From positions 1-58,380 of the forward strand of contig NZ_JARKOZ010000056.1 in the NCBI RefSeq assembly GCF_029978005.1: a DNA stretch of 58,380 nt, read 5' to 3'. The position numbers and the translations under genes are program-made. This document shows, one piece after another, positions 3,692 through 50,983 of this stretch (the stretch's first letter is position 1; every line of letters starts with the position of its first letter). A model generated the notes under the pieces. It saw only the letters and a program-made list of their open reading frames with translations. It ran no database searches and was not told where the DNA came from. Origin of the DNA: Solidesulfovibrio sp. Lineage in GTDB: Bacteria; Desulfobacterota; Desulfovibrionia; Desulfovibrionales; Desulfovibrionaceae.

Positions 3692-5266
3692 GTGCTCAGC
3701 AAAGCCTCAATGCCCCCCTGGCGGTCGATAAGCCTCGGTTTGGCGATCCTACCCCTGGTACTGCTCCTGGTCCAGCCAGTCCGAGCCGAAGAGGCTTTTT
3801 CCTTCGAGAAGCTCACCGCCATGGCCCGACAATTGGCGGTCACGCCTTATCAGGCCCCGGGTCAAATCCCCAAGCCTCTCGGCGGCATCAGCTACGACAC
3901 GTGGCGAAAAATCCGCTTCAAGCCTGAGGCCGCCTTGTGGCGCAAGGAGAATCTGCCTTTCGAGTTGCAATTTTTCCCTCCGGGATTCCTCTATGATCGC
4001 ACGGTCACGGTCAACATCGTATCCGGCGGCATGGCGAGTCCCCTGGCCCTGGGCACCGACAGCTTCGATTTGAGCCAAGTGGAGGATCTGGCGCAACAAC
4101 TTCCGTCCCGGATCGGCATTGCCGGCTTCCGAGTCCATACCGCTATCAACACCCCGACCTATCTTGACGAATTCCTCTTGTTTCTGGGTGCTTCCTATTT
4201 CCGGGCCGTGAGTCGGGGGGAAAACTACGGGCTGTCGGCCCGGGGATTGGCCGTGAACACCGCCTCACCCTCGGGCGAAGAATTCCCCTGGTTCCGGGAA
4301 TTCTGGATCGTCAAACCGGCCAAGACCGACAAGGCCATCCGGATTTTCGCCCTGCTCGACAGCCAGAACCTGACCGGCGCTTATGCCTTTGCGGCCACGC
4401 CGGGCCAGGAAACCATCATCGACGTCAACGCCCGGATTTTTTTGCGCCAACCAGTGGCCAAACTTGGCATTGCTCCCCTGACCAGCATGTTTTTTTACGG
4501 CGAAAACTCCTTGCCGGGAACGCGCCAGGACTGGCGTCCCGAGGTCCACGACTCCGACGGCCTGCTCGTCCACTTCCGAAACGGGGAATGGCTCTGGCGA
4601 CCGCTTGTCAATCCCGTCCATCTCCAGGGGAACTTGTTTACCGCTGGCCACGTCCGAGGCTTCGGCCTCCTGCAGCGGGATACGGACTTCGCCGACTACC
4701 AGGACCTGGAGGCCCGAATGGAAAACCGCCCCAGCGTATGGATCGAACCACAAGGAAACTGGGGAGACGGCGGGGTGGAGCTGGTGCTCATTCCCTCGGA
4801 CAAGGAAATCCACGACAACGTGGTGGTTTTTTTTCGGCCCAATACGACGCCCGAGCCTGGAAAGGCCCTGGAATTCGCCTATCGCATGCGCTGGGGCAAG
4901 GCCCCGGACGATTTGCCGCCCGGGCCCCGGGTCACGGCTACCCGGACATCCGTTCCGAATCCGGACCAGCGCCTATTCGTCGTGGATTTCGGGGGCAAGG
5001 CCCTAGCCAGGCTCAAACCGGACGCCGTTGTCCAGGGCATCGTCAGCGCCGGCTCCGGCGGTACTATTCTTGAGCACCAAGTCTATCGGAATCCGGTCAC
5101 TGGTGGGTGGCGTCTTACGTTTACCGCCGCCCTTGACAAGAGCGGCGCTCTGGCGGGCGTTTTGCCCGACAAGAGGCCGCCCGTGGAGTTGCGGGCCTTT
5201 CTAAAGCTTCCGGATGGACGCGTAAGTGAGACATGGAGCACTTCCATGACCCCGGTCGCTCCATGA
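3692..5266 (+). CDS. opgG: Periplasmic glucan biosynthesis protein OpgG (MdoG)
   Basis: 524 residues starting at GTG, with AAGGAGG seven bases upstream. A Sec signal peptide spans about residues 1-32 (hydrophobic core LAILPLVLLLVQP, cleavage near VRAEE). The mature part starts with FSFEKLTAMARQLA, as in OpgG/OpgD, and continues with the mutarotase-like beta-sandwich and a C-terminal Ig-like domain. In the periplasm it shapes or branches the beta-glucan backbone made by OpgH. Its TGA overlaps the ATG of opgH, so the two are translationally coupled. Full length, no damage seen. OpgD is the alternative, but the partnership with opgH favours OpgG. Confidence 0.93.
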   Translation: MLSKASMPPWRSISLGLAILPLVLLLVQPVRAEEAFSFEKLTAMARQLAVTPYQAPGQIPKPLGGISYDTWRKIRFKPEAALWRKENLPFELQFFPPGFLYDRTVTVNIVSGGMASPLALGTDSFDLSQVEDLAQQLPSRIGIAGFRVHTAINTPTYLDEFLLFLGASYFRAVSRGENYGLSARGLAVNTASPSGEEFPWFREFWIVKPAKTDKAIRIFALLDSQNLTGAYAFAATPGQETIIDVNARIFLRQPVAKLGIAPLTSMFFYGENSLPGTRQDWRPEVHDSDGLLVHFRNGEWLWRPLVNPVHLQGNLFTAGHVRGFGLLQRDTDFADYQDLEARMENRPSVWIEPQGNWGDGGVELVLIPSDKEIHDNVVVFFRPNTTPEPGKALEFAYRMRWGKAPDDLPPGPRVTATRTSVPNPDQRLFVVDFGGKALARLKPDAVVQGIVSAGSGGTILEHQVYRNPVTGGWRLTFTAALDKSGALAGVLPDKRPPVELRAFLKLPDGRVSETWSTSMTPVAP

Positions 5267-7713
5267 CGACAACAGTTGCCAATACGTCAGGCGCGGCCTC
5301 AAAGCACGCATCGCCGGCCGAAGCTGTGAGTCGCAGGTTGCTCGCCTATCTGCGCCGCCTGCCCATGGCCGAAGAACAGCGGTTGGAAACGGCCCAGGAG
5401 CTGACGCATGCGTTCTCGGCCGAGGGCAACGCTCCCGAGGACGCCGCGTCCCGGGCCATGGCCGCATTTTTTCGGCAGACCGGTGCTCCCGGGCCCCGAC
5501 AGGACGCTTGCCCCACCCCCCGGATCCAACGCACCCCCATGGCTCCGCGATTCGGACCCGCGACGGGCAGTCACTGGGCTGGTCCACGTTTCCGGCCTGG
5601 GTCTGCGTGTTCGGACATCCCCTTGGAACATCGCCACCGTTTATGGACCAGGGTGGCCAACCGGCGACGTCTATTCCTGGCATTTTTGATCGTCGCTCCC
5701 ACCCTGGCCGGGACCCTCCGCATGCGTGAGCTTTTCCCGAGCCAGGGACACACCGGCCTGGAAGTCGTTCTGTTGATCGCATTTTCGTTCCTGTTCGCCT
5801 GGATATCCATCGGCTTCTGGACGGCCATGGCCGGTTTCGTTCTCCTGGCCCGTGGCGTCGACCGTTTTGCCGCGACGACGGCAAGGGAGACCGACGCGAT
5901 GGTGCGACCCGGCGTGCGCACGGCAGTGGTCTTTCCGGTCTATGGCGAGGACATGGACCGGGTAGCTGCCGGCATCGAGGCGGTCGCCCGCTCTCTGGGC
6001 GGGGCTGCAGGCGGGAATTTCGATTTTTTCATCCTGAGCGACACCAGGGACCCCGACGCCTGGGTGGAGGAGGAGAGAGCCTTTGCCGCCCTGAGGAATA
6101 GATTGATCGGGGTCGTTCCGGTCTTCTACCGACGCCGGCGGGCGAACATCAAAAAGAAAAGCGGCAACATTGCCGATTTCTGCCGTGGGTTCGGGGCCGG
6201 ATACACCTACATGTTGGTCATGGACGCCGACAGCATCATGGCTGGAGAAACCATAAACCGCCTGGTGCAAATCATGGAGCGCCGCCGGGACGTGGGCATC
6301 CTCCAAACCATCCCTAGGCTCGTGGGAAAGGCCACGTTGCTGGCCCGGGTCCAGCAACTGGCGAGCAGCCTTTATGGTCCCATGTTCGCCGCCGGACTTC
6401 ATTACTGGCTTATGGGCAACGCGCTCTACATTGGCCACAATGCCCTCATCCGGCTGCGACCGTTTACGCGCTACTGCGCCCTGCCTAGGCTGCGGGGTTC
6501 TCCCCCTCTGGGCGGAGAGATATCGAGCCATGATTTCGTGGAAAGCGGCCTGATGCGGCGGGCCGGCTGGGGCGTCTGGATGGTCTATGATCTGCCCGGG
6601 AGCTACGAGGAAACCCCGACGAACGTTCTGGCTGAGCTTGAGCGCGACCGGCGCTGGTGTAAGGGAAATCTCCAGCACTTACGCTTGGTTTTCAGCAGCG
6701 CCGTGTTTCCCGCTTACCGAATGCTGTTTGTCAATGGTGTCATGGTGTACGGCGCGGCCCTGCTTTGGTTCATCTTCCTGGCAGTGTCTTCGGCCGAAGC
6801 CGTTTACGAATCCTTCACCCCTCTGACCTATTTCCCCCCGACCAGATCCCTCTTTCCGAACTGGCCGATCTGGGAGCCCTGGTGGGCGGTGGGCTTGCTT
6901 TTGACCACAGGCGGGCTGCTTTTTCTGCCGAAGCTCGCCGGCGTCCTGCTGGTGCTCCTCAAGGGCCGGGCCCACCTCTTCGGCGGTCTGGCAAAACTTC
7001 TCGTAGGAGTCGGGATCGAGATTGTGGTGTCGACCTTACTGGCTCCCGTCCGCATGTTGGCCCATAGCAAGTTCCTGGTCTTGACTCTGCTCGGCCGGGA
7101 TACCGGCTGGGGACGCCAAGTCCGGGAGGATAAGTCCCTCTCCCCGGGCGAAGCCGTCCGGCTGCATCTGGGCGGCACGATTCTGGCCACTTTGTGGGCC
7201 ATGGCCCTTTATCTCCTGAACCAGCGATTTTTCTGGTGGGTAAGCCCTATTTTTCTTCCACTCCTCCTGGCAGCTCCTCTGTCCATGGTGACGAGCTCTC
7301 CCGGGGTCGGGCGCTGGCTGCAACACTTGGGGCTGCTCCTCATTCCCGAGGAAGTCGAGCCCCCCCAGGTACTTTTGGATCTCGCCAAGCACCATCGCGC
7401 CAACCAGGAAGCCGACCGGCCTCTGGGCATTCCCAGAGACCAGGGCTTTGCCTTGGCCGTGGTCGATCCGGCAAGTTGCGGATTGCGCCTGGGCATGATC
7501 CACCGACCTAGCCGGACAGGGGCGGACAGGGAAGCACGGCGTGAGGCGCTCGTAGCCAAGGCTGTCGCTCTCGGCCCCCTCGGCCTGGATATTGGAGATA
7601 AAACCAAAGTGCTCGACGATTCGGCCGCTCTGATCGAGTTGCACCGTCAGATATGGAGGCTGCCCGCTAAGGAAGTCCGCCGCTCCTGGTTGGCCCAGAT
7701 CGATTGGCCGTGA
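5263..7713 (+). CDS. opgH: Membrane glucosyltransferase OpgH (MdoH)
   Basis: 816 residues. The start at 5263 is chosen because ATGA overlaps the opgG stop; an in-frame start 30 bases upstream exists. OpgH is an inner-membrane family-2 glycosyltransferase that polymerises glucose from UDP-glucose into periplasmic glucans. Visible features: an N-terminal cytoplasmic region, two transmembrane segments at about 130-200, and a GT2 domain beginning RTAVVFPVYGEDMDR. It also has the metal-binding MDADS (320-324), the RRW motif at 463-465, then several C-terminal membrane helices. Usual length is about 800-850. Glucans help in low-osmolarity envelopes. Confidence 0.94.
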   Translation: MTTTVANTSGAASKHASPAEAVSRRLLAYLRRLPMAEEQRLETAQELTHAFSAEGNAPEDAASRAMAAFFRQTGAPGPRQDACPTPRIQRTPMAPRFGPATGSHWAGPRFRPGSACSDIPLEHRHRLWTRVANRRRLFLAFLIVAPTLAGTLRMRELFPSQGHTGLEVVLLIAFSFLFAWISIGFWTAMAGFVLLARGVDRFAATTARETDAMVRPGVRTAVVFPVYGEDMDRVAAGIEAVARSLGGAAGGNFDFFILSDTRDPDAWVEEERAFAALRNRLIGVVPVFYRRRRANIKKKSGNIADFCRGFGAGYTYMLVMDADSIMAGETINRLVQIMERRRDVGILQTIPRLVGKATLLARVQQLASSLYGPMFAAGLHYWLMGNALYIGHNALIRLRPFTRYCALPRLRGSPPLGGEISSHDFVESGLMRRAGWGVWMVYDLPGSYEETPTNVLAELERDRRWCKGNLQHLRLVFSSAVFPAYRMLFVNGVMVYGAALLWFIFLAVSSAEAVYESFTPLTYFPPTRSLFPNWPIWEPWWAVGLLLTTGGLLFLPKLAGVLLVLLKGRAHLFGGLAKLLVGVGIEIVVSTLLAPVRMLAHSKFLVLTLLGRDTGWGRQVREDKSLSPGEAVRLHLGGTILATLWAMALYLLNQRFFWWVSPIFLPLLLAAPLSMVTSSPGVGRWLQHLGLLLIPEEVEPPQVLLDLAKHHRANQEADRPLGIPRDQGFALAVVDPASCGLRLGMIHRPSRTGADREARREALVAKAVALGPLGLDIGDKTKVLDDSAALIELHRQIWRLPAKEVRRSWLAQIDWP

Positions 7714-25266: not shown

Positions 25267-26262
25267 TTAGCTGACGGCCGATTCGGTGTTGAGAATGGCG
25301 TCACAGCGGTTGACCGGGATGCCGTCGAAAGAAACGACGTGCTTCCCGGAGACCTGCTCCATGGTCAGGGTGGAGGCGGCCACCTTGTTGGCGATCTGCC
25401 GGCGCAGGAAGCTGCGGACGGTGCGCGAGCAGTAGAAGACCGGCCGGCCCATCTTGATTTCGGGAAGCAGTTCGATGGCCTGGGTCATCAGGTCGATGAG
25501 ATCGGCACCGCTGGCGGCGTTTTTCGTGAGGGCGGTCACGTCGATGTTGGCGACACGCACGACGTACCGCCAGTCACGGACGGTCATGCCGATGTCCCAC
25601 TTGTAGTGGGTGCGGTAGCCCTGGTACTTGCCGCCGTTGGCATCCTCGAGGGTCACTTCGCCCAGGTCGTTGTGCTGCAGGCCGGCCTTGCTCCCCTTGG
25701 GGAAGATGCCGTGAATGGTGTTTTCGCCCCAGCAGACCAGCCAGACGCTGGTGTTGGTGCTGCCCGAGCCCGATCCGGACAGGACGTTGCCGGCGGACTG
25801 GGAACCGGACAGGGCGTTGTAGCGCGGGGCCAAGCCCAGGAAGCGTTCGGGGTTCACGGCCGTGTTGCCGTAGAACACGGTGGACGCCATGGCCTGGTTC
25901 ATGGCTTCGATGAAGGCTCGGTCCTCGGAGAGCCGAAAGGCCGACGTGTTGCCGTTGAGATCGGCCAGGGCCTTGTCCACCTCGGCATAGGCCTCGAGCA
26001 TGCCGCACGAGTCGGTGACCTGCGCGGTCGAGCTCTTGGACGGCTGCACGCCATAGTTGAGCATGCGCCAGGTGGCCGAGGGCAGGCCGGTGCGCACGGT
26101 GGTCTTGTGCCCGGTGGGCAGGTTGCCCTGGACGAAGGGCATATCGTCCAGGATGGGGTTGGTCAGATTGAGCAGTTCGGCCACGGCGTCGATTTTGCCG
26201 TCAGGGTCCAAACGCTTGGCCCAGTCGGCCAGGGTGATGAAGTTGCTGCCAAGGGTGGCCAT
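25267..26262 (-). CDS. Major capsid protein (BPP-1 Bbp17-like)
   Basis: 331 residues. Several near-invariant phrases of this HK97-fold subgroup are present: TLADWAKRLDPDGKIDAVAE, GNLPTGHKTTVRTGLP, WRMLNYGVQPSKSSTAQVTD, MASTVFYGNTAVNPERFLGL and HGIFPKGSKAGLQHNDLG. There is no separate protease gene nearby. A scaffold-like protein lies immediately upstream, as expected for shell assembly. Confidence 0.92.
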   Translation of the reverse strand: MATLGSNFITLADWAKRLDPDGKIDAVAELLNLTNPILDDMPFVQGNLPTGHKTTVRTGLPSATWRMLNYGVQPSKSSTAQVTDSCGMLEAYAEVDKALADLNGNTSAFRLSEDRAFIEAMNQAMASTVFYGNTAVNPERFLGLAPRYNALSGSQSAGNVLSGSGSGSTNTSVWLVCWGENTIHGIFPKGSKAGLQHNDLGEVTLEDANGGKYQGYRTHYKWDIGMTVRDWRYVVRVANIDVTALTKNAASGADLIDLMTQAIELLPEIKMGRPVFYCSRTVRSFLRRQIANKVAASTLTMEQVSGKHVVSFDGIPVNRCDAILNTESAVS

Positions 26263-39961: not shown

Positions 39962-39989
39962 ATCATAGCTAATTAGCTATGCTCGTCAA
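39962..39989 (-). promoter_or_regulatory. Lytic leftward promoter (cro promoter)
   Basis: On the minus strand: TTGACG (39989-39984), 16 bases, TATGAT (39967-39962), very close to sigma70 consensus. The spacer contains the operator palindrome, so repressor binding would block RNA polymerase directly. Confidence 0.75.
39964..39981. promoter_or_regulatory. Operator O1 (perfect palindrome)
   Basis: CATAGCTAATTAGCTATG, an 18-bp perfect palindrome with core TAGC-taatta-GCTA. The same TAGC-N6-GCTA core occurs at 40012-40025, 42132-42145 (one mismatch) and 42164-42177. Confidence 0.75.
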
Positions 39990-40011
39990 GAAAGAATAAG
40001 CCAAACAGCCA

Positions 40012-40025
40012 TAGCCAAAGAGCTA
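40012..40025. promoter_or_regulatory. Operator O2
   Basis: TAGC-caaaga-GCTA, located just upstream of the repressor gene, where it could mediate autoregulation. Confidence 0.65.
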
Positions 40026-40031
40026 CACAAT

Positions 40032-40688
40032 ATGCATACTTCAGCCATGGGATTTGTTGAAAACTTTCTTGACGAGCTGAAGGCCGCGCGTGATTCGCGT
40101 TTTGGTGGCGTTAATCAGAAGATGGCCAAGGCGGCGGAATATGATCCTACCAATTTGGGAAGGATTTTGCGTGGCGAAAAGACCAGTTGGCTCAGTTCGT
40201 TGGGGAGGTTGGCCGATGCCGCTGGGTTGGTCGTAACTCAAAAAAACGCAGCGACTGGCGACGAGTACGCTTTCATCCAGATCGCCGAAGCCAAACCATC
40301 GGCTGGTGGCGGATCATTGGAAACCAGTGGAAAAACCGAAGGGTCTTTGGCGTTTCGTCGCGACTGGTTGGGCTCAAAGACCAGGACCAGCCCGGAGCGT
40401 CTTCGAGTGATGTTTGTGGCCGGGGATTCCATGAGCCCGACCATTTCCAACGGCGACGTCGTTTTAGTCGATGAAGGCGGCCAAGGGAAAGAGTTGCGTG
40501 AAGGAAAGGTCTACGTCATTCGTAAGGGTGATGAAATTTTTGTGAAGAGATACCGGCGCGGTGTTGGGAAGCAGTTATTCTTGGGAGATAACAGAGAAAC
40601 TTCCTACAACGATGTGGAAGTTTTTCCGGGGGATGAAGACGGATTTGAAGTTATTGGGAGGGTGATATGGGCTGGGAAAGAATTATAA
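40032..40688 (+). CDS. CI-like repressor (HTH + S24 peptidase)
   Basis: 218 residues. N-terminal HTH about 8-65 (VNQKMAKAAEYDPTNLGRIL). C-terminal S24/LexA-type domain: VAGDSMSPTISNGDVVLVD with Ser133 and FVKR with Lys172. An Ala-Gly pair (A91-G92) before the domain is a plausible RecA-stimulated cleavage site. So lysogeny is maintained by a repressor that DNA damage can inactivate. A start at 40047 is also possible; neither has a clear ribosome binding site. Confidence 0.88.
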   Translation: MHTSAMGFVENFLDELKAARDSRFGGVNQKMAKAAEYDPTNLGRILRGEKTSWLSSLGRLADAAGLVVTQKNAATGDEYAFIQIAEAKPSAGGGSLETSGKTEGSLAFRRDWLGSKTRTSPERLRVMFVAGDSMSPTISNGDVVLVDEGGQGKELREGKVYVIRKGDEIFVKRYRRGVGKQLFLGDNRETSYNDVEVFPGDEDGFEVIGRVIWAGKEL

Positions 40689-41642: not shown

Positions 41643-42068
41643 ATGAAACGCCATATCTACCTTGCCGGCCCCCTGTTCACTCACGCCGAACGCGCCTACC
41701 TCGCCGCGCTCCGTGACCGCCTGCGTCAGCTTCCAGGCGTCACGGTGACCTGGCCGGGCGATCTGTTCGAGTCTGACCACCTGGCCATGCTCGGCCCTAA
41801 GGCCAAGCAGTACATTTTCGAGGGGTGCCGCGATGCGATCCATGAGGCCACTCACGTAATTTCCCTGCTGGACGGCACTCAGGTGGACGACGGAACAGCT
41901 TGGGAGATCGGTTACGCCTACGCCCGGGGATTGCCTATCCTGGGGCTTCGGACAGATTTTCGACAGGCGGGGGACACAGCGCATTCGGTCGCCAACGCTA
42001 TGATAGAATGCTCCTGCCACGCGATTTACCGCTCAGCTGACGAGTTACTGGCAACCCTGGCTAAATAG
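41643..42068 (+). CDS. Nucleoside 2-deoxyribosyltransferase family protein
   Basis: 141 residues. IYLAGPLFTHAERAYLAALR and DDGTAWEIGYAYARGLPILG are diagnostic for the family (catalytic Glu in W-E-I-G). It moves deoxyribose between bases; phages may use it for nucleotide salvage, and the same fold occurs in NAD or nucleotide-depleting defence enzymes. Followed by a strong terminator. Confidence 0.85.
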   Translation: MKRHIYLAGPLFTHAERAYLAALRDRLRQLPGVTVTWPGDLFESDHLAMLGPKAKQYIFEGCRDAIHEATHVISLLDGTQVDDGTAWEIGYAYARGLPILGLRTDFRQAGDTAHSVANAMIECSCHAIYRSADELLATLAK

Positions 42069-42092
42069 CTGCCTTGTTATTCGCTTTCCAAC

Positions 42093-42120
42093 GTCCCCGC
42101 TCCGGCGGGGATTTTTTTTT
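42093..42120 (+). terminator. Intrinsic terminator of the repressor/cargo operon
   Basis: TCCCCGC-tcc-GGCGGGGA followed by nine T. It separates the lysogeny operon from the operator-controlled promoter just downstream. Confidence 0.92.
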
Positions 42121-42131
42121 GGAGCCTTCTA

Positions 42132-42145
42132 TAGCTAAACGGCTT
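42132..42145. promoter_or_regulatory. Operator O3 (imperfect)
   Basis: TAGC-taaacg-GCTT; one mismatch to the TAGC-N6-GCTA consensus. Lies 32 bases before O4. Confidence 0.55.
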
Positions 42146-42153
42146 GGGCTTGC

Positions 42154-42181
42154 TTGACGTCTCTAGCCATTTAGCTATTAT
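42154..42181 (+). promoter_or_regulatory. Rightward early promoter with operator O4
   Basis: TTGACG (42154-42159), 16 bases, TATTAT (42176-42181). O4, TAGC-cattta-GCTA, lies at 42164-42177 inside the spacer and -10 box. Same architecture as the cro promoter, so the repressor is expected to silence both arms. Confidence 0.75.
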
Positions 42182-42291
42182 CCCCCTCAACGAGCCCACA
42201 CCGCGAGACACCGCCGAACCCTGGAACGTTCGCGGCCCGGCAACGGAGCCCCAAAGGGGCAGTCACCGGGACCAGGGAGGAGGCGGACACG
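42182..42291 (+). other. 5' untranslated leader of rightward operon
   Basis: About 110 bases between promoter and first peptide. It holds the small hairpin GCCCC-AAA-GGGGC (42248-42260). No other feature seen. Confidence 0.35.
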
Positions 42292-42357
42292 ATGCGAGGG
42301 CGAAATTTCGAAAATTTCCAGGCTTACAACGGACACCAACCACAGGAGACACGATGA
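42292..42357 (+). CDS. 21-residue leader peptide
   Basis: ATG 42292 with a strong GGGAGGAGG upstream. It encodes MRGRNFENFQAYNGHQPQET-R and its TGA overlaps the ATG of the repeat protein (ATGA). Probably couples translation of the next gene. The peptide itself shows no domain. Confidence 0.4.
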   Translation: MRGRNFENFQAYNGHQPQETR

Positions 42358-42908
42358 AGATCAACCTCAAAATGCGCTTTGCGGCCGTCCTGACGCTGGG
42401 CGGAGACACGTCGAAACTGCCGCCGGAAGACCTTGTTTCCGCCGCCGCCTCCCCTGACTGGCGCGTCCGTCAGGCGGTCGCCCAGGCGGGGGCCAGCCGT
42501 ACCGACATCCCGGCCGAGACCCTGGTGGCCCTGGCCGCCGACGATGACTGCGACGTCCGTCAGGCGGTCGCCCAGGCGTTGGCCAGCCGTACCGACATCC
42601 CGGCCGAGACCCTGGTGGCCCTGGCCGCCTCCCCTGACTGGCGCGTCCGTCAGGCGGTCGCCCAGGCGTTGGCCAGCCGTACCGACATCCCGGCCGAGAC
42701 CCTGGTGGCCCTGGCCGCCGACGATGACTGCGACGTCCGTCAGGCGGTCGCCCAGGCGGGGGCCAGCCGTACCGACATCCCGGCCGAGACCCTGGTGGCC
42801 CTGGCCGCCGACGATGACTGCGACGTCCGTCAGGCGGTCGCCCAGGCGGGGGCCAGCCGCGGCCTCACGGAAGAGATGCTGCGCATGCTCATGGAGGCCG
42901 TCGCGTAG
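42354..42908 (+). CDS. HEAT/LRV-type repeat protein with near-identical DNA repeats
   Basis: 184 residues; CAGGAG lies before the ATG. Four and a half units of 30 residues: DIPAETLVALAA, then SPDWR or DDDCD, then VRQAVAQ, then AL or AG, then ASRT. The V-R-Q-A-V-A helix resembles HEAT or leucine-rich-variant repeats, which form protein-binding solenoids. No catalytic residues. First full-sized gene of the rightward operon. The partner is unknown; an anti-host-function or scaffold role is possible. Confidence 0.7.
   Translation: MKINLKMRFAAVLTLGGDTSKLPPEDLVSAAASPDWRVRQAVAQAGASRTDIPAETLVALAADDDCDVRQAVAQALASRTDIPAETLVALAASPDWRVRQAVAQALASRTDIPAETLVALAADDDCDVRQAVAQAGASRTDIPAETLVALAADDDCDVRQAVAQAGASRGLTEEMLRMLMEAVA
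42450..42860 (+). repeat. 90-bp tandem repeats, 4.5 copies
   Basis: Units begin at 42450, 42540, 42630, 42720 and 42810. They are identical except at two places: a 15-base block coding SPDWR or DDDCD, and two bases (GG or TT) coding AG or AL. Combinations are S-G, D-L, S-L, D-G, D-G. Confidence 0.92.
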
Positions 42909-42978: not shown

Positions 42979-43179
42979 ATGTGCTACCACGATATGCCCA
43001 CCGAATTCCCGCCGCTTGGCTGGCACGACATCAAAGACGTGGCCAAGGTCGTAGTTCTGGCACTGGCCGCCATCTTCCTCATCTCCCTATTCGCTCCGCT
43101 GCAGCTTGGCCATTGGCGCGCCGTCGAACGGCACACGGAAATTGCGAGTGCGGCGGTCGAGCCGCGCGTGTGGAGGTAG
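42979..43179 (+). CDS. Small membrane protein
   Basis: 66 residues, AGGAGGAAAGGCC before the ATG. One transmembrane segment (VAKVVVLALAAIFLISLFAP). Unknown function in the early rightward operon. Confidence 0.6.
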   Translation: MCYHDMPTEFPPLGWHDIKDVAKVVVLALAAIFLISLFAPLQLGHWRAVERHTEIASAAVEPRVWR

Positions 43180-43662: not shown

Positions 43663-43853
43663 CCACCCTCTCCATCGACCATCGTCATCCCCACGTGACG
43701 CGTGCCATTGACGCCATGCGATCGGGCGACCTGGAGCGCACGGGGATTTTCGCCACGCACCCGGAACTAGCTGTCAGGGTTGTTCGCCGGGTGTCCATGG
43801 ACATGGGCAACCGCATCGCGGCCAGGGCGCTTGGTTTGGAGGCAAGGGCATGA
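43659..43853 (+). CDS. Small phage hypothetical protein
   Basis: 64 residues, ATG overlaps the preceding TGA, and its own TGA overlaps the following ATG. MTTLSIDHRHPHVTRAIDAM, later RRVSMDMGNRIAARALGLEA. Function unknown; position just before the exonuclease. Confidence 0.55.
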   Translation: MTTLSIDHRHPHVTRAIDAMRSGDLERTGIFATHPELAVRVVRRVSMDMGNRIAARALGLEARA

Positions 43854-44401
43854 GTTGTCCGCAGGACCTCCCGAGCGTGACCACGATCCTTTCCCCGTGG
43901 TCAGACTTCAGTCGCGTCCCGGAAGAGGTCCTGGCGAATGCGGCAGAGCGGGGAACGCTCGTGCACCAGGCCTGTGCCTGCCGGCTGATCGGACTTTGGT
44001 CCTTCCCGGTGCCAGCCGAGATCAGGGGCTATCTGGATTCCTTCGAGAAATGGTTGCCCATCGTGGCTGACGTTGCCCTTTGCGAGGGAGAGCTTGCCGA
44101 CCATGATTACGGCTATATGGGCCATCCTGACCTGATTTGTCGTCTCCAGGGTGACGCATCCCTTGCCGTCATCGACTTCAAGACCCCCCTGGCAAAATCC
44201 AAATCTTGGCGGCCACAGCTTGCCGCTTACCGGGAACTGGCTGTCAAGCGCGGCCTCGACGTGCGCCGGGTGATGTCCGTGCGCCTCAAGAAAGACGGGG
44301 GCCGCCCCATCGTCAACGAGTCCACGGCTACGGTGGCGCATGACTTCGCGGTCTTCCGCAACGCCCTGGCCTGCTGGAAATACTTCAAGGGAGGAAACTG
44401 A
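43850..44401 (+). CDS. PD-(D/E)XK exonuclease (RecB/Cas4-like)
   Basis: 183 residues. H39 in GTLVHQ, D94 in GHPDL, D109-x-K111 in VIDFKT, and Q123-x3-Y127 in QLAAY are the full motif set of RecB-type nucleases. Lies two genes before recT, so it is the probable 5'-3' exonuclease partner of the annealing protein, like lambda Exo for Beta. Confidence 0.85.
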   Translation: MSCPQDLPSVTTILSPWSDFSRVPEEVLANAAERGTLVHQACACRLIGLWSFPVPAEIRGYLDSFEKWLPIVADVALCEGELADHDYGYMGHPDLICRLQGDASLAVIDFKTPLAKSKSWRPQLAAYRELAVKRGLDVRRVMSVRLKKDGGRPIVNESTATVAHDFAVFRNALACWKYFKGGN

Positions 44402-44403
44402 AC

Positions 44404-45141
44404 ATGACTGCTATCGATTTCGGCGCGGCGCTCCGCGAACCGACCCCCGGCATGCCGCCGACTGCTCCGGCTGTCTTCGAGATGCCGACGACAGCGCCGG
44501 CCCAGGCCAACCCCTACGACATGACTCCGGTCAAAGCGGCCCTCGCACCGTATACGGCCGAGATCGAAGCCATGCAGACCAAAGCTGCGGCTGTTGTCAT
44601 CGAATCCGACGAAACCAACACGCTGGCCATCGAAATGGGTCTGCAGGCCAAGAAGCTGGGGGGTGCCATCGAGAAGGCACGCAAGGCATTCGTGGCCGAT
44701 CCCAACGAGTACGTGCGCGGCATCAACGCCCTGGCCAAAAGCTTCGGCGAAAAGCTGGCCGCCATCGAATACGGCCTCAAGCGGAAGATCGGGGACTACC
44801 AGCAACGCAAGGAATTGGAGCGGCGTAAGGTCGAGGAAGAGGCGCGCCGGCAGACGGCCGAGCTCCAGGCCAAGCTGGATGCCGAGGCCAAGGCCGCCAA
44901 TGTGGAGCCGGTCAAGATCGAAGCCCCTGTCGTGCCCAAGGCTTCCGGTCCCGTGCGCACGGCGGAAGGGACGTCCTACCAGCACACGGAATGGCGTTTC
45001 GAAGTCCAGGACGATGCGGCCATTCCCCGAGAATACCTGATGCCGTGCGAAACCAGGATCAGGCAGGCGGTCAAGGACGGCGCGCGGAACATCCCCGGCG
45101 TTCGCATCTTCGAGCACACCGAAACCAGATTCAGGAGATAG
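44404..45141 (+). CDS. Phage recombination-associated coiled-coil protein
   Basis: 245 residues. N-terminal Pro-rich segment, then a long coiled coil (about 45-165; ERRKVEEEARRQTAELQAKL) and a C-terminal globular part (WRFEVQDDAAIPREYLMPCE). Such proteins often lie between exonuclease and RecT in phage recombination modules (DUF1351-like). Role unknown. Confidence 0.6.
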   Translation: MTAIDFGAALREPTPGMPPTAPAVFEMPTTAPAQANPYDMTPVKAALAPYTAEIEAMQTKAAAVVIESDETNTLAIEMGLQAKKLGGAIEKARKAFVADPNEYVRGINALAKSFGEKLAAIEYGLKRKIGDYQQRKELERRKVEEEARRQTAELQAKLDAEAKAANVEPVKIEAPVVPKASGPVRTAEGTSYQHTEWRFEVQDDAAIPREYLMPCETRIRQAVKDGARNIPGVRIFEHTETRFRR

Positions 45142-45144
45142 GTC

Positions 45145-46389
45145 ATGGCCACCACGTCCATCGATGTCTTCAGGGGCACCCTGAAGAAAATGGAAGGCGA
45201 ATTCGCCCTCGTCCTTCCCAAGGGTGTCACTCCCGAGACGTTTACCCGCGTCGTCATGACGGCCGTGCAGTCCGAACCGACGTTGATGCCGCATCTAAAC
45301 ACCGATCAGGGTCAACGATCCATGATCGCGGCCGCCATGAAGTGCGCCCAGGATGGCTTGATGCCTGACAAGCGGGAAGCCGCCTTCGTGGTCTACAAGG
45401 GGCAGCCCCAATACATGCCGATGATTGGCGGCGTGCGCAAAAAGCTCATGGCCACGGGACTGTTCAACGGCATCCCGGCGCACGTCGTCTACGAAAATGA
45501 TCACTTCGTCTACGAGCTCGGCGACAACGAGCGTCTGGAGCATCGGCCCGTCCTCAAGGACCGAGGAGAACCCATTGCCGTCTATGCCATCGCCATCTTC
45601 AAGGACGGTTACCGCGAGCGCGAGGTAATGACCGTCGAAGACATCGAGAAAGTCAGGGCCGTTTCGGCGGCGCAGAATGGTCCCTGGAAGACGTGGTGGG
45701 ACCAAATGGCCATCAAGACCGTTACCAAGCGGCTGGCGAAGCGGCTTCCGGTCAGCCGGGAGGTCGTGGAAGTCCTGGATGCCGACAGGGAAGAGTTCGA
45801 GGGCACCACATACGACGTAACGGCCTCACCCGTTGATGTTTCCGAGTTCGACCGGCTGGCCCAAGCACGCGGCGCGGACATGGGCGCGCTGTCCCGCTTC
45901 ACCGTGGCCACGGCCAGCATGAACAAGTGCCCGGTTGATGACGTGAAGGCCCAGGCCATTGCCAATTTCGACAGCTTTTGGGCCGCCTTCGAGACCTGGC
46001 AGACAAAGCAGCCGGCCGCGAACGGCAACGGCCAGAAGAAGCCCCGGGCCACGGCCTCCATGCGGGAAGGGGCCGCGAAGGCGGTTGTGGACGCGGGCCT
46101 GGACCTCGCCGCCATCGAAAAAGACTTCGGGGTTTACTCCAAGGACTGGAGCCACACCCAATGCGAGCAGGCCAAGAAGTTGGCGGCCGACGCCCTGTCC
46201 GCCGCTGGCGTGGTCCCCGATCCCGAGGCCGATGCTGATTCCGCCGACCAGGAGCAGCCCGCCGAGACACCCCAGGACCTCCCCGAAACCGTCGAGTGCC
46301 CGAACACGGGCAACGTCGTGCGCCTCGCCGTGGAGTGCGCCGCCTGCGGTCAGATGGGACTGTGCCCATCCACGGACGGGCAGGAGTAG
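45145..46389 (+). CDS. recT: RecT-family single-strand annealing protein with Cys-rich tail
   Basis: 414 residues. RecT core residues 10-230: AAAMKCAQDGLMPDKREAAF, VYKGQPQYMPMIGGVRKKLM, and WWDQMAIKTVTKRLAKRLPV are signature phrases. It anneals complementary strands in phage recombination with the nuclease encoded upstream. The C-terminal 120 residues are extra and end with CPNTGNVVRL...CAACGQMGLCP, which looks like a zinc ribbon. RecT proteins are usually about 270-330 residues. Confidence 0.92.
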   Translation: MATTSIDVFRGTLKKMEGEFALVLPKGVTPETFTRVVMTAVQSEPTLMPHLNTDQGQRSMIAAAMKCAQDGLMPDKREAAFVVYKGQPQYMPMIGGVRKKLMATGLFNGIPAHVVYENDHFVYELGDNERLEHRPVLKDRGEPIAVYAIAIFKDGYREREVMTVEDIEKVRAVSAAQNGPWKTWWDQMAIKTVTKRLAKRLPVSREVVEVLDADREEFEGTTYDVTASPVDVSEFDRLAQARGADMGALSRFTVATASMNKCPVDDVKAQAIANFDSFWAAFETWQTKQPAANGNGQKKPRATASMREGAAKAVVDAGLDLAAIEKDFGVYSKDWSHTQCEQAKKLAADALSAAGVVPDPEADADSADQEQPAETPQDLPETVECPNTGNVVRLAVECAACGQMGLCPSTDGQE

Positions 46390-49798: not shown

Positions 49799-50118
49799 TG
49801 ATGACCGCCGCTCAGGTAGCCGAAAAGCTTGGCATGCACATCAACACGGTCTACAGGCTGAAGCGGAAGCTTGGAGGGGTCCAGCTTGTTGCCGGCGGAC
49901 GCCTGATGTTCTCTGAAAAACGGATAAACGAGATTCTGGAGCCATCCAATGCCCTATCCATTGAAGAACGGGAAGTGGAAAGCAACCCGTATGATAAACG
50001 GCAAGAGGAAGGAAAAAACGTGTGCAACAAAAAGGGAAGCTCTCACATGGGAAGCCGCCCAAACCGAGGAAGTATGGGACGCACGCCAGACGTGCATAAC
50101 GTGCTTGGAGTGGTGTAA
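49798..50118 (+). CDS. Excisionase/MerR-type HTH protein
   Basis: 106 residues; TGATG coupling. TAAQVAEKLGMHINTVYRLK then LVAGGRLMFSEKRINEILE is an excisionase-type winged HTH, complete by about residue 50. The remaining 55 residues are coded in the region that also encodes the integrase N-terminus in another frame, and read like a shadow. May be Xis, placed directly before int. Confidence 0.65.
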   Translation: MMTAAQVAEKLGMHINTVYRLKRKLGGVQLVAGGRLMFSEKRINEILEPSNALSIEEREVESNPYDKRQEEGKNVCNKKGSSHMGSRPNRGSMGRTPDVHNVLGVV

Positions 50119-50983
50119 CGCATACCTCTCCTATGCACAGGAGCGCTTTTCAAAAAAGACGTATGAAGAAAAACGCTTCGCCTTCCGCAACTTGATTCGC
50201 TTTGTCGAAAAAGACACTCCTGTCGAAGAAATACCCATGAAAAAAATCCTGGACGCTTTGCGAAACAGGGCCAAGTCCAGAAGCGGAAACGCGGCGAACA
50301 AGGACAGGAAGAACCTTGCAGCCGCATGGCATTGGGGAAGGAAGTACCTCGCCTTCAACGAGAAAAACCCGTTCTTGGCGGTTGACCGTTTTTCCCACGA
50401 TGAAAAGGGGCGTTACGTTCCGACGCCGGCCGATTTTGACAAGGCCATGGCAGCCGCTGGCCCTGAGGATCGCGTCTTCCTTCTTACGGCCCTCCATACC
50501 GGTGCGCGCCGCGGGGAGCTTTTTCGCCTGACGTGGCCGGACATCGACTTGGCGAATGGGACCATCCGGCTCGGGACACGTAAGACAGCCACCGGGGGAA
50601 TGGAGTATGCGGCCATCCCCATGACGCCGGAACTTCGGCAGGCCATGGCCGAGCACAGGAGGAAAGGCCCCCGCTCCATGACCGTCTTCACCACGGTTGA
50701 GGGAGACGACTTCACGAGCCGGCAGCATTACATGGCCAGGCTCTGCAAGCGGGCTTGCGTCAAGCCGTTCGGGTTCCACGCTATCCGGCATCTGTCAGCG
50801 GTAATGATGTACCATGCTGGCCAGCCGGTCAGCGTGATTCAAGCCATGCTCAGACACAAGAACGCGGGGACCACGGAACGATACCTGAAGAGGTTGGGCC
50901 TGGACCCTGAGAAGCTGCGCAAGGCGGTCGAGGCCGTCTTCTCGAAACCGCAGATTGACCATCTGTCTGAGGTAAAAAAATAG
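49949..50983 (+). CDS. int: Tyrosine-type site-specific integrase
   Basis: 344 residues. Arm-binding N-terminus (KNGKWKATRMINGKRKEKTC), core-binding domain about 50-150, and a catalytic domain with R187 (HTGARRGEL), K212, H277-x-x-R280 (FHAIRH), H303 and nucleophile Y312 (TTERYLK). All six catalytic positions are present. Lies 84 bases from attR, as usual. Its start lies inside the HTH gene in another frame. Confidence 0.93.
   Translation: MPYPLKNGKWKATRMINGKRKEKTCATKREALTWEAAQTEEVWDARQTCITCLEWCNAYLSYAQERFSKKTYEEKRFAFRNLIRFVEKDTPVEEIPMKKILDALRNRAKSRSGNAANKDRKNLAAAWHWGRKYLAFNEKNPFLAVDRFSHDEKGRYVPTPADFDKAMAAAGPEDRVFLLTALHTGARRGELFRLTWPDIDLANGTIRLGTRKTATGGMEYAAIPMTPELRQAMAEHRRKGPRSMTVFTTVEGDDFTSRQHYMARLCKRACVKPFGFHAIRHLSAVMMYHAGQPVSVIQAMLRHKNAGTTERYLKRLGLDPEKLRKAVEAVFSKPQIDHLSEVKK

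Follow-up and report, generated by a model that had tools for sequence, protein, structure and literature searches.

A homogenised HEAT/LRV repeat array with a recombining two-state site in a Solidesulfovibrio prophage as a candidate early binding adaptor

A prophage gene of Solidesulfovibrio sp. was found to encode a small solenoid protein whose full repeat units are identical to the base except at two sites, each of which occurs in two states. The explanation that we favour, at a probability a little above even, is that this protein is an early phage binding adaptor, in which a homogenised and capped HEAT/LRV scaffold carries a recombining two-state face. The structural and evolutionary parts of this explanation are well supported; its target, its binding and its early expression are parts that we infer.

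The window analysed here is the whole stretch of 58,380 nucleotides from contig NZ_JARKOZ010000056.1 (positions 1 to 58,380, forward strand). It holds a prophage, with genes for a major head protein, a head-tail adaptor, tail proteins, an endolysin and an integrase. The major head protein (25270-26262) is 66% identical to its counterpart in Bordetella phage BPP-1. The array gene is divided as follows.

42354 to 42908, plus strand: array gene, encoding a 184-aa HEAT/LRV solenoid with 12 predicted helices (open reading frame, Pfam, AlphaFold2)
42354 to 42449, plus strand: N-cap with a conserved LGGDTSKL stretch (invariant columns of alignment A1, 5 sequences)
42450 to 42539, plus strand: unit 1, WR state, G (sequence comparison of units)
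42540 to 42629, plus strand: unit 2, CD state, L (sequence comparison of units)
42630 to 42719, plus strand: unit 3, WR state, L (sequence comparison of units)
42720 to 42809, plus strand: unit 4, CD state, G (sequence comparison of units)
42810 to 42859, plus strand: partial unit 5, CD state, G (TRF and sequence comparison of units)
42860 to 42908, plus strand: C-cap helix and stop (open reading frame, AlphaFold2)

The array (42450-42859) thus consists of four 90-bp units and half of a fifth in a single open frame, a copy number and unit order that rest on one assembly of 224 contigs. An earlier note on this DNA had given 4.5 units in the order S-G, D-L, S-L, D-G, D-G, and its coordinates and order proved exact. 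It had also held that the units differ solely by SPDWR/DDDCD and AL/AG. This was borne out: differences among full units were confined to unit positions 1, 2, 4, 5, 12, 13 and 14 (SPDWR/DDDCD) and 40 and 41 (TTG/GGG), and the remaining 24 codons showed 0 differences in 6 of 6 pairs. TRF analysis of the window returned a period of 90, 4.5 copies and a score of 722, the runner-up among 7 rows scoring 68. When charges were counted from the sequence, the net charge was 0 for a WR unit and -4 for a CD unit. A search of the source genome with the array protein at E<=1 gave a single match, the array gene itself, and silent donor copies were not found at that threshold; ordinary HEAT proteins, other than the array protein, are present in this genome.

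By both its repeat profiles and its predicted solenoid, the array protein belongs to the HEAT/LRV repeat superfamily. Pfam matches were all above cut-off: HEAT_2 (5e-18, 65.6 bits, cut-off 27.7), HEAT (4e-9, 36.2 bits, cut-off 23.5) and LRV (9e-8, 32.4 bits, cut-off 21.6). The AlphaFold2 model is a helix-turn-helix solenoid of 12 helices (mean pLDDT 84.7), in which the second helix of unit 1 (helix 36-48) begins at the W of WR. Fold and consensus are shared with HEAT/LRV proteins (PF13646, PF02985, PF01816; 1lrv, MTH187 1te4). When solved structures were searched by sequence, the artificial alphaRep proteins matched best (4zv6, 1e-17), with 1lrv and MTH187 lower (1te4, 8e-4). Foldseek comparison with solved structures also placed chains with alphaReps best, at a TM by query of about 0.7-0.8 for the top matches. 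The excerpted text of PMC3754942 gives 18, 19, 22, 23, 26 and 30 as the positions varied by design in alphaRep. By our numbering of the printed alphaRep repeats, the WR/CD site, made up of the two residues directly before V-R, would correspond to positions 18-19. According to the same excerpts, alphaReps (3ltj, 4zv6, 6ft5) and the array have in common HEAT helix-turn-helix units, a constant scaffold, N- and C-caps, differing unit numbers and, on our reading of the register before V-R, a variable di-residue 18-19. They differ in that alphaReps are artificial and carry many residues at six variable positions, whereas the variation of the array is natural, mostly two-state and, among those six positions, limited in the window to 18-19; the AL/AG site coincides with a constant L in the printed alphaRep repeats. 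An alphaRep/MTH187-like HEAT subgroup is therefore indicated by the sequence match but not by variation at all six positions. The proposal in the earlier note that module order could change the binding face of the solenoid gains from the variable site falling, as we read it, on alphaRep variable positions, and loses from only 18-19 varying. The WR and CD states may also reflect folding instead of recognition.

Relatives of the array fell into two phage groups. In the group of the window, L002 and L003 (MAG contigs labelled Geobacteraceae MAG D180) have a window-like neighbourhood with flank pieces 81-91% identical, and the array of each is cut at the contig end. Units two and three of L002 (6754-6933) are oddly diverged near that contig end, which could be an assembly error. 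Counting the partial last unit, arrays of this group contain 1 unit (G015, a partial one), 3 (L007), 5 (window) and 5 (G180, in the order WR, CD, WR, CD, WR). L022, a sister contig of L007, is 99.98% identical to it over 6272 bp and ends within the array, and L124 is an additional fragment of this group. Searches with relatives revealed the second group, with 29-aa units running like DDDWRVRQAAMNACNGKDVPIEIIERWLK; DUF5758 (PF19062) lies at the C-terminus of the scanned proteins P0007 and P0008, and is absent from the window protein by Pfam. The best segment of L008 is 45% identical to the window protein. In this second group the dipeptide is likewise mostly WR or CD, and the second two-state site is W or G in 74 of the 77 readable units (81 in total); linkage between dipeptide and second site was not seen there (p=0.18). 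The DUF5758-group query also found, at L055 (1-480), a C-terminus like that of this group on pentapeptide-like repeats, not HEAT units. One contig of 140,956 bases has array pieces at both ends (L012/L013), and a second, of 52,964 bases, probably has them too (L048/L140), as though a circular genome had been cut open inside the array.

In searches of host genomes, in which part of the first-look candidates were scored, the gene turned up, at E 1e-5, in 1 of the 14 genomes from the genus and in 3 of the 288 from the family, at E 1e-12 in 1 of 395 genomes from a phylum sample, and at E 1e-15 in 3 of 348 from the order; all matches come from the same three genomes. Named records gave no tblastn match: phages were searched with P0001 at E 1e-5 and with P0002 at E 1e-3, and plasmids with P0001 at E 1e-3.

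The state of the dipeptide was then counted across both groups. Among 103 units of 32 loci from the two divergent phage groups, the dipeptide before V-R was WR or CD in 89; these loci are partly dependent (certain of them represent both ends of a single contig or a single MAG, and others are near-duplicates), and some of the query patterns by which loci were searched held WR or CD states, one of them in part, the N-cap, MNAC and DUF5758 patterns being without them. The count was 87 of 94 units when the non-homogenised L034 was left out, and 76 of 89 without five near-duplicate loci. The remaining 14 units had CN (4), WT (2) or one of eight single types. The census omits the repeat-contig loci L001, L010, L015, L016, L018, L021, L031, L032, L037-L039, L042-L045, L050, L052 and L054, as well as L055 (pentapeptide repeats), L056 (on the contig of L041), L057 (too short) and the later-found L101, L124, L131 and L140. 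As a control, 136 HEAT units from related genomes and from L004-L006 showed 61 dipeptides, with WR in 7 and CD in 0; these dipeptides were extracted by a regular expression that set the register, and L004-L006, found with a WR/CD-bearing pattern, are enriched for WR. The control arrays, with so many dipeptide types, are in this respect unlike the phage arrays. Of 56 units with W, 52 had R or K as its partner, and of 44 units with C, 43 had a non-basic partner, although units within one array are not independent, so that Fisher values overstate the case. Both W and C states were present in 20 of the 28 loci having at least two units. Because codons differ between phages, the amino acids at the dipeptide are what is kept. 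Alternation of the two states was rejected as a rule (55 runs versus 52.8 expected in 18 arrays, p=0.29). Nine diverged, non-homogenised units, with dipeptides including SK, CY, WK, CN, PN and CK, make up L034 (2647-3813), an old-looking array mostly outside the two-state rule and a useful outgroup. In IMG/VR, the motif DCDVRxAAxxA was found in 19 stretches, 16 of which belong to the family by contig name or translation (L089, L093 and L099 do not); of 48 stretches with DWRVRxA[AV]xxA, 23 are array loci, among them L131 with states WR and YD, and 25 are not.

Sequence comparison shows that the units of most arrays are kept alike, through recombination or gene conversion. Between the window and L007, the unit bodies differ at 11 synonymous and 1 nonsynonymous codons of 24, yet there is no internal unit-body difference in either array (6 pairs in the window, 1 pair in L007). 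Of the earlier suggestion that the array is "young or homogenised", the second half thus stands and mere youth does not, since bodies that have diverged are internally uniform. Two of the four full units of G180 are diverged, so homogenisation is incomplete in places. Alignments that take in the array edges are 96% identical both for L008 and L011 (as L039; 2858 bp) and for L009 and L029 (1800 bp). Even so, the 4 units printed for L008 and L009 all have DDD, N, I, whereas the 6 printed for L011 and L029 all have DED, S, V. Judging from these printed units, unit versions are exchanged across whole arrays. Homogenisation by itself is also what one alternative would predict: unequal crossing-over alone would keep the units alike, and the two states would persist by common descent only. 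Tandem repeats can homogenise without selection, and the other dipeptides of old-looking L034 fit such neutrality. However, both states are kept as amino acids despite codon change across groups 45% identical (best segment of L008), W and C states occur together in most multi-unit loci, and array frames are mostly open, those of L028 (2974-3488) and L041 being broken. We consider this neutral explanation quite unlikely.

Array length and unit order also change, as the earlier note had anticipated; both differ among close relatives in comparisons between phages. L024 has 8 units and L026 and L035 have 2 each, with aligned flank pieces 82-99% identical. Over 6135 bp, L026 and L035 share 97% identity, yet the W/G state of unit 2 differs. 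All four combinations of the two variable sites are found in the window, in L008 and in L027, which supports the recombination between units proposed earlier, recurrent mutation being the sole alternative. Furthermore, units 2-4 and 5-7 of L131 form an exact three-unit duplication of 261 bp. A diversity-generating retroelement introduces substitutions limited to template adenines; the array was rejected as a target of one by codon comparison, in which the changes between TGGCGC and TGCGAC (G/C, C/G and G/A) are not limited to A.

Unit number or order might instead have been created by collapse or misjoin of short reads. Assemblers often fail at this locus: 15 of 31 contigs end within the array versus 0.88 expected (from hand-entered end flags and a crude expectation), so any single copy number is to be distrusted, and the window itself comes from an assembly of 224 contigs. 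Against such an artefact, arrays with both flanks are present in separate assemblies (window, L007, G180, L024 and L040), and the WR and CD states recur across data sets and are therefore not the product of a misjoin. An assembly origin of the pattern is, in our judgement, very improbable.

The position of the array gene relative to the following elements bears on its expression.

39965 to 40024, strand not assigned: operator-like motif lying immediately before the repressor gene (14-mer and 16-base palindrome searches)
40032 to 40688, plus strand: S24-family (CI/LexA-like) repressor (Peptidase_S24, 2e-17)
42093 to 42120, plus strand: site like an intrinsic terminator, ahead of the array gene (1 found; mean of 0.9 in shuffles)
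42131 to 42178, strand not assigned: two operator-like half sites in inverted orientation, overlapping the promoter-like site (sequence and motif search)
42154 to 42181, plus strand: sigma-70-type promoter-like site, 10/12 (1 found; shuffles mean 0.3)

The terminator-like count is not above chance, given that shuffles had nearly as many. A 14-mer from the array promoter region, with up to 3 mismatches, gave 7 matches in the window versus 1.4 expected, and the 16-base palindrome at 39965 matched one further site, 42163, at 3 mismatches (expected for both: 0.02); here and in L002 the patterns were derived from the very sequences searched. Three of the 14-mer matches lie at 39965-40024 before the S24 repressor gene, two of them being one palindrome on both strands; three lie at 42057-42178 (one within the end of the preceding gene) and one elsewhere. 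In L002, a different 16-mer from the array upstream region matches there twice (6345-6392; exact and with 3 mismatches) and twice more at 4115-4187 (exact and with 2 mismatches; 0.03 expected), which, judged by eye, is the start of a repressor-like ORF. An 11-mer comparison of the stretches upstream of repressor and array gave 2 matches versus a control mean of 1.4, a result near control, so that the operator reading rests on the 14-mer and 16-mer searches. In both the window and L002, operator-like motifs link repressor and array promoter regions, with letters differing per phage, possibly as in a replaceable immunity region. Given this likeness to an immunity region, a repressor-controlled early operon probably begins with the array gene, whose position would imply early expression. 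The leader (42187-42353), about 170 bases before the array gene, is nearly unchanged in L002 by eye. It folded barely better than shuffles (z -1.6), and known RNA families were not found at gathering score within 38-50 kb of the window.

Downstream of the array, the following genes were identified.

42979 to 43179, plus strand: small protein containing a hydrophobic segment, encoded immediately after the array gene (sequence and ORF lists)
43850 to 45141, plus strand: nuclease/exonuclease-like genes (PDDEXK_1, 3e-4, 21.1 bits, under the cut-off of 22; phrog_10477 exonuclease, 2e-5)
45145 to 46389, plus strand: RecT single-strand annealing protein (RecT, 6e-44; phrog_148)
49949 to 50983, plus strand: integrase (phrog_1, 1e-52)

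The small protein adjoins the array also in L003 and, in diverged form, in L007, and is a possible partner of the array protein. The array had been described as lying beside a phage recombinase operon, which is fair, RecT beginning 2.2 kb downstream on the same strand. This setting suggests the main rival to the adaptor, namely an internal part of phage recombination or replication: the solenoid would scaffold RecT, exonuclease or replisome partners, WR and CD would be structural alternatives, and array length would drift by unequal recombination with no arms race. At 5 of 7 further loci, a neighbour matched RecT/PDDEXK, ERF, YqaJ, a phage ssDNA-binding domain or a DnaN-like clamp, in a scan whose ORFs were chosen by eye in a way that favours such matches and whose RecT and helicase matches were under cut-off. 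On the other hand, the scanned ORFs of L025 and L020 gave no family match, and the adjoining recombination genes differ in kind. We regard this internal scaffold as unlikely, if less so than neutral homogenisation.

The adaptor explanation, which we prefer, would run as follows. An early gene of a temperate phage would make a small capped HEAT/LRV solenoid that acts as a binding adaptor, probably produced from a repressor-controlled promoter. As the sequences show, recombination or gene conversion holds the scaffold units of most arrays identical or close to it, array length and unit order shift between close relatives, and variation is focused on the di-residue that starts the second helix, mostly WR or CD, and on one more two-state site. 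If the variable positions are the ligand-facing surface, as in artificial alphaRep binders, then the target would be set by the order in which WR (aromatic/basic) and CD (thiol/acidic) units follow one another. The partner might be a host or phage protein of DNA metabolism or defence, whose variation would favour reshuffling. A stricter version, which we hold only tentatively and think doubtful, is a two-letter combinatorial recognition code, in which homogenised HEAT units carrying WR or CD and a second W/G or L/G site would be reshuffled by recombination into a phage-specific pattern on the face of an early protein, its target changed by reordering of units and not by point mutation. Overall, the interpretation of the array in the earlier note is partly supported.

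Several kinds of element seen here are already known, namely HEAT repeats, concerted evolution and tandem-repeat prophage genes. Zhou et al. reportedly described, in 2011, hypervariable Liberibacter prophage genes with intragenic tandem repeats. Residues 35-166 of the array protein are matched by phrog_20647 (unknown function) at 6e-6, and all three BFVD matches at E<=0.001 (21-26% identical) are to 'Leucine rich repeat variant' proteins of phages. The closest parallel in mode of evolution is with the repeats of fungal NOD-like receptors, which, in the excerpted text of PMC4986451, have high internal conservation, length polymorphism, concerted evolution and few variable surface positions. The array is like them in its near-identical repeats, concerted evolution, length polymorphism and variation at few positions; so far as its sequences indicate, concerted evolution of the NLR type is a property of the phage arrays. 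As those excerpts describe them, the fungal repeats are of the WD, ANK or TPR type, are attached to NOD domains and have several positions that evolve under diversifying selection, whereas the array protein is a 184-aa phage protein with two main states and no NOD domain; in a Pfam scan of its 184 aa, neither NACHT nor NB-ARC was found and only repeat models were above cut-off. In a literature search of titles and abstract openings, with most subscription papers outside its scope, no homogenised phage HEAT array with a two-state di-residue was found, and a search on DUF5758 found nothing. What appears new here is a dipeptide that is mostly WR or CD, with changing codons, in two divergent phage groups, one of them fused to DUF5758.

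The two-state rule yields a simple prediction that can be tested. If the face binds, phages would own a natural counterpart of engineered repeat-protein libraries, and the array order of sequenced phages could be read against host genotype. In that case, the array would also let concerted evolution, unequal recombination and binding specificity be measured side by side in one compact system.
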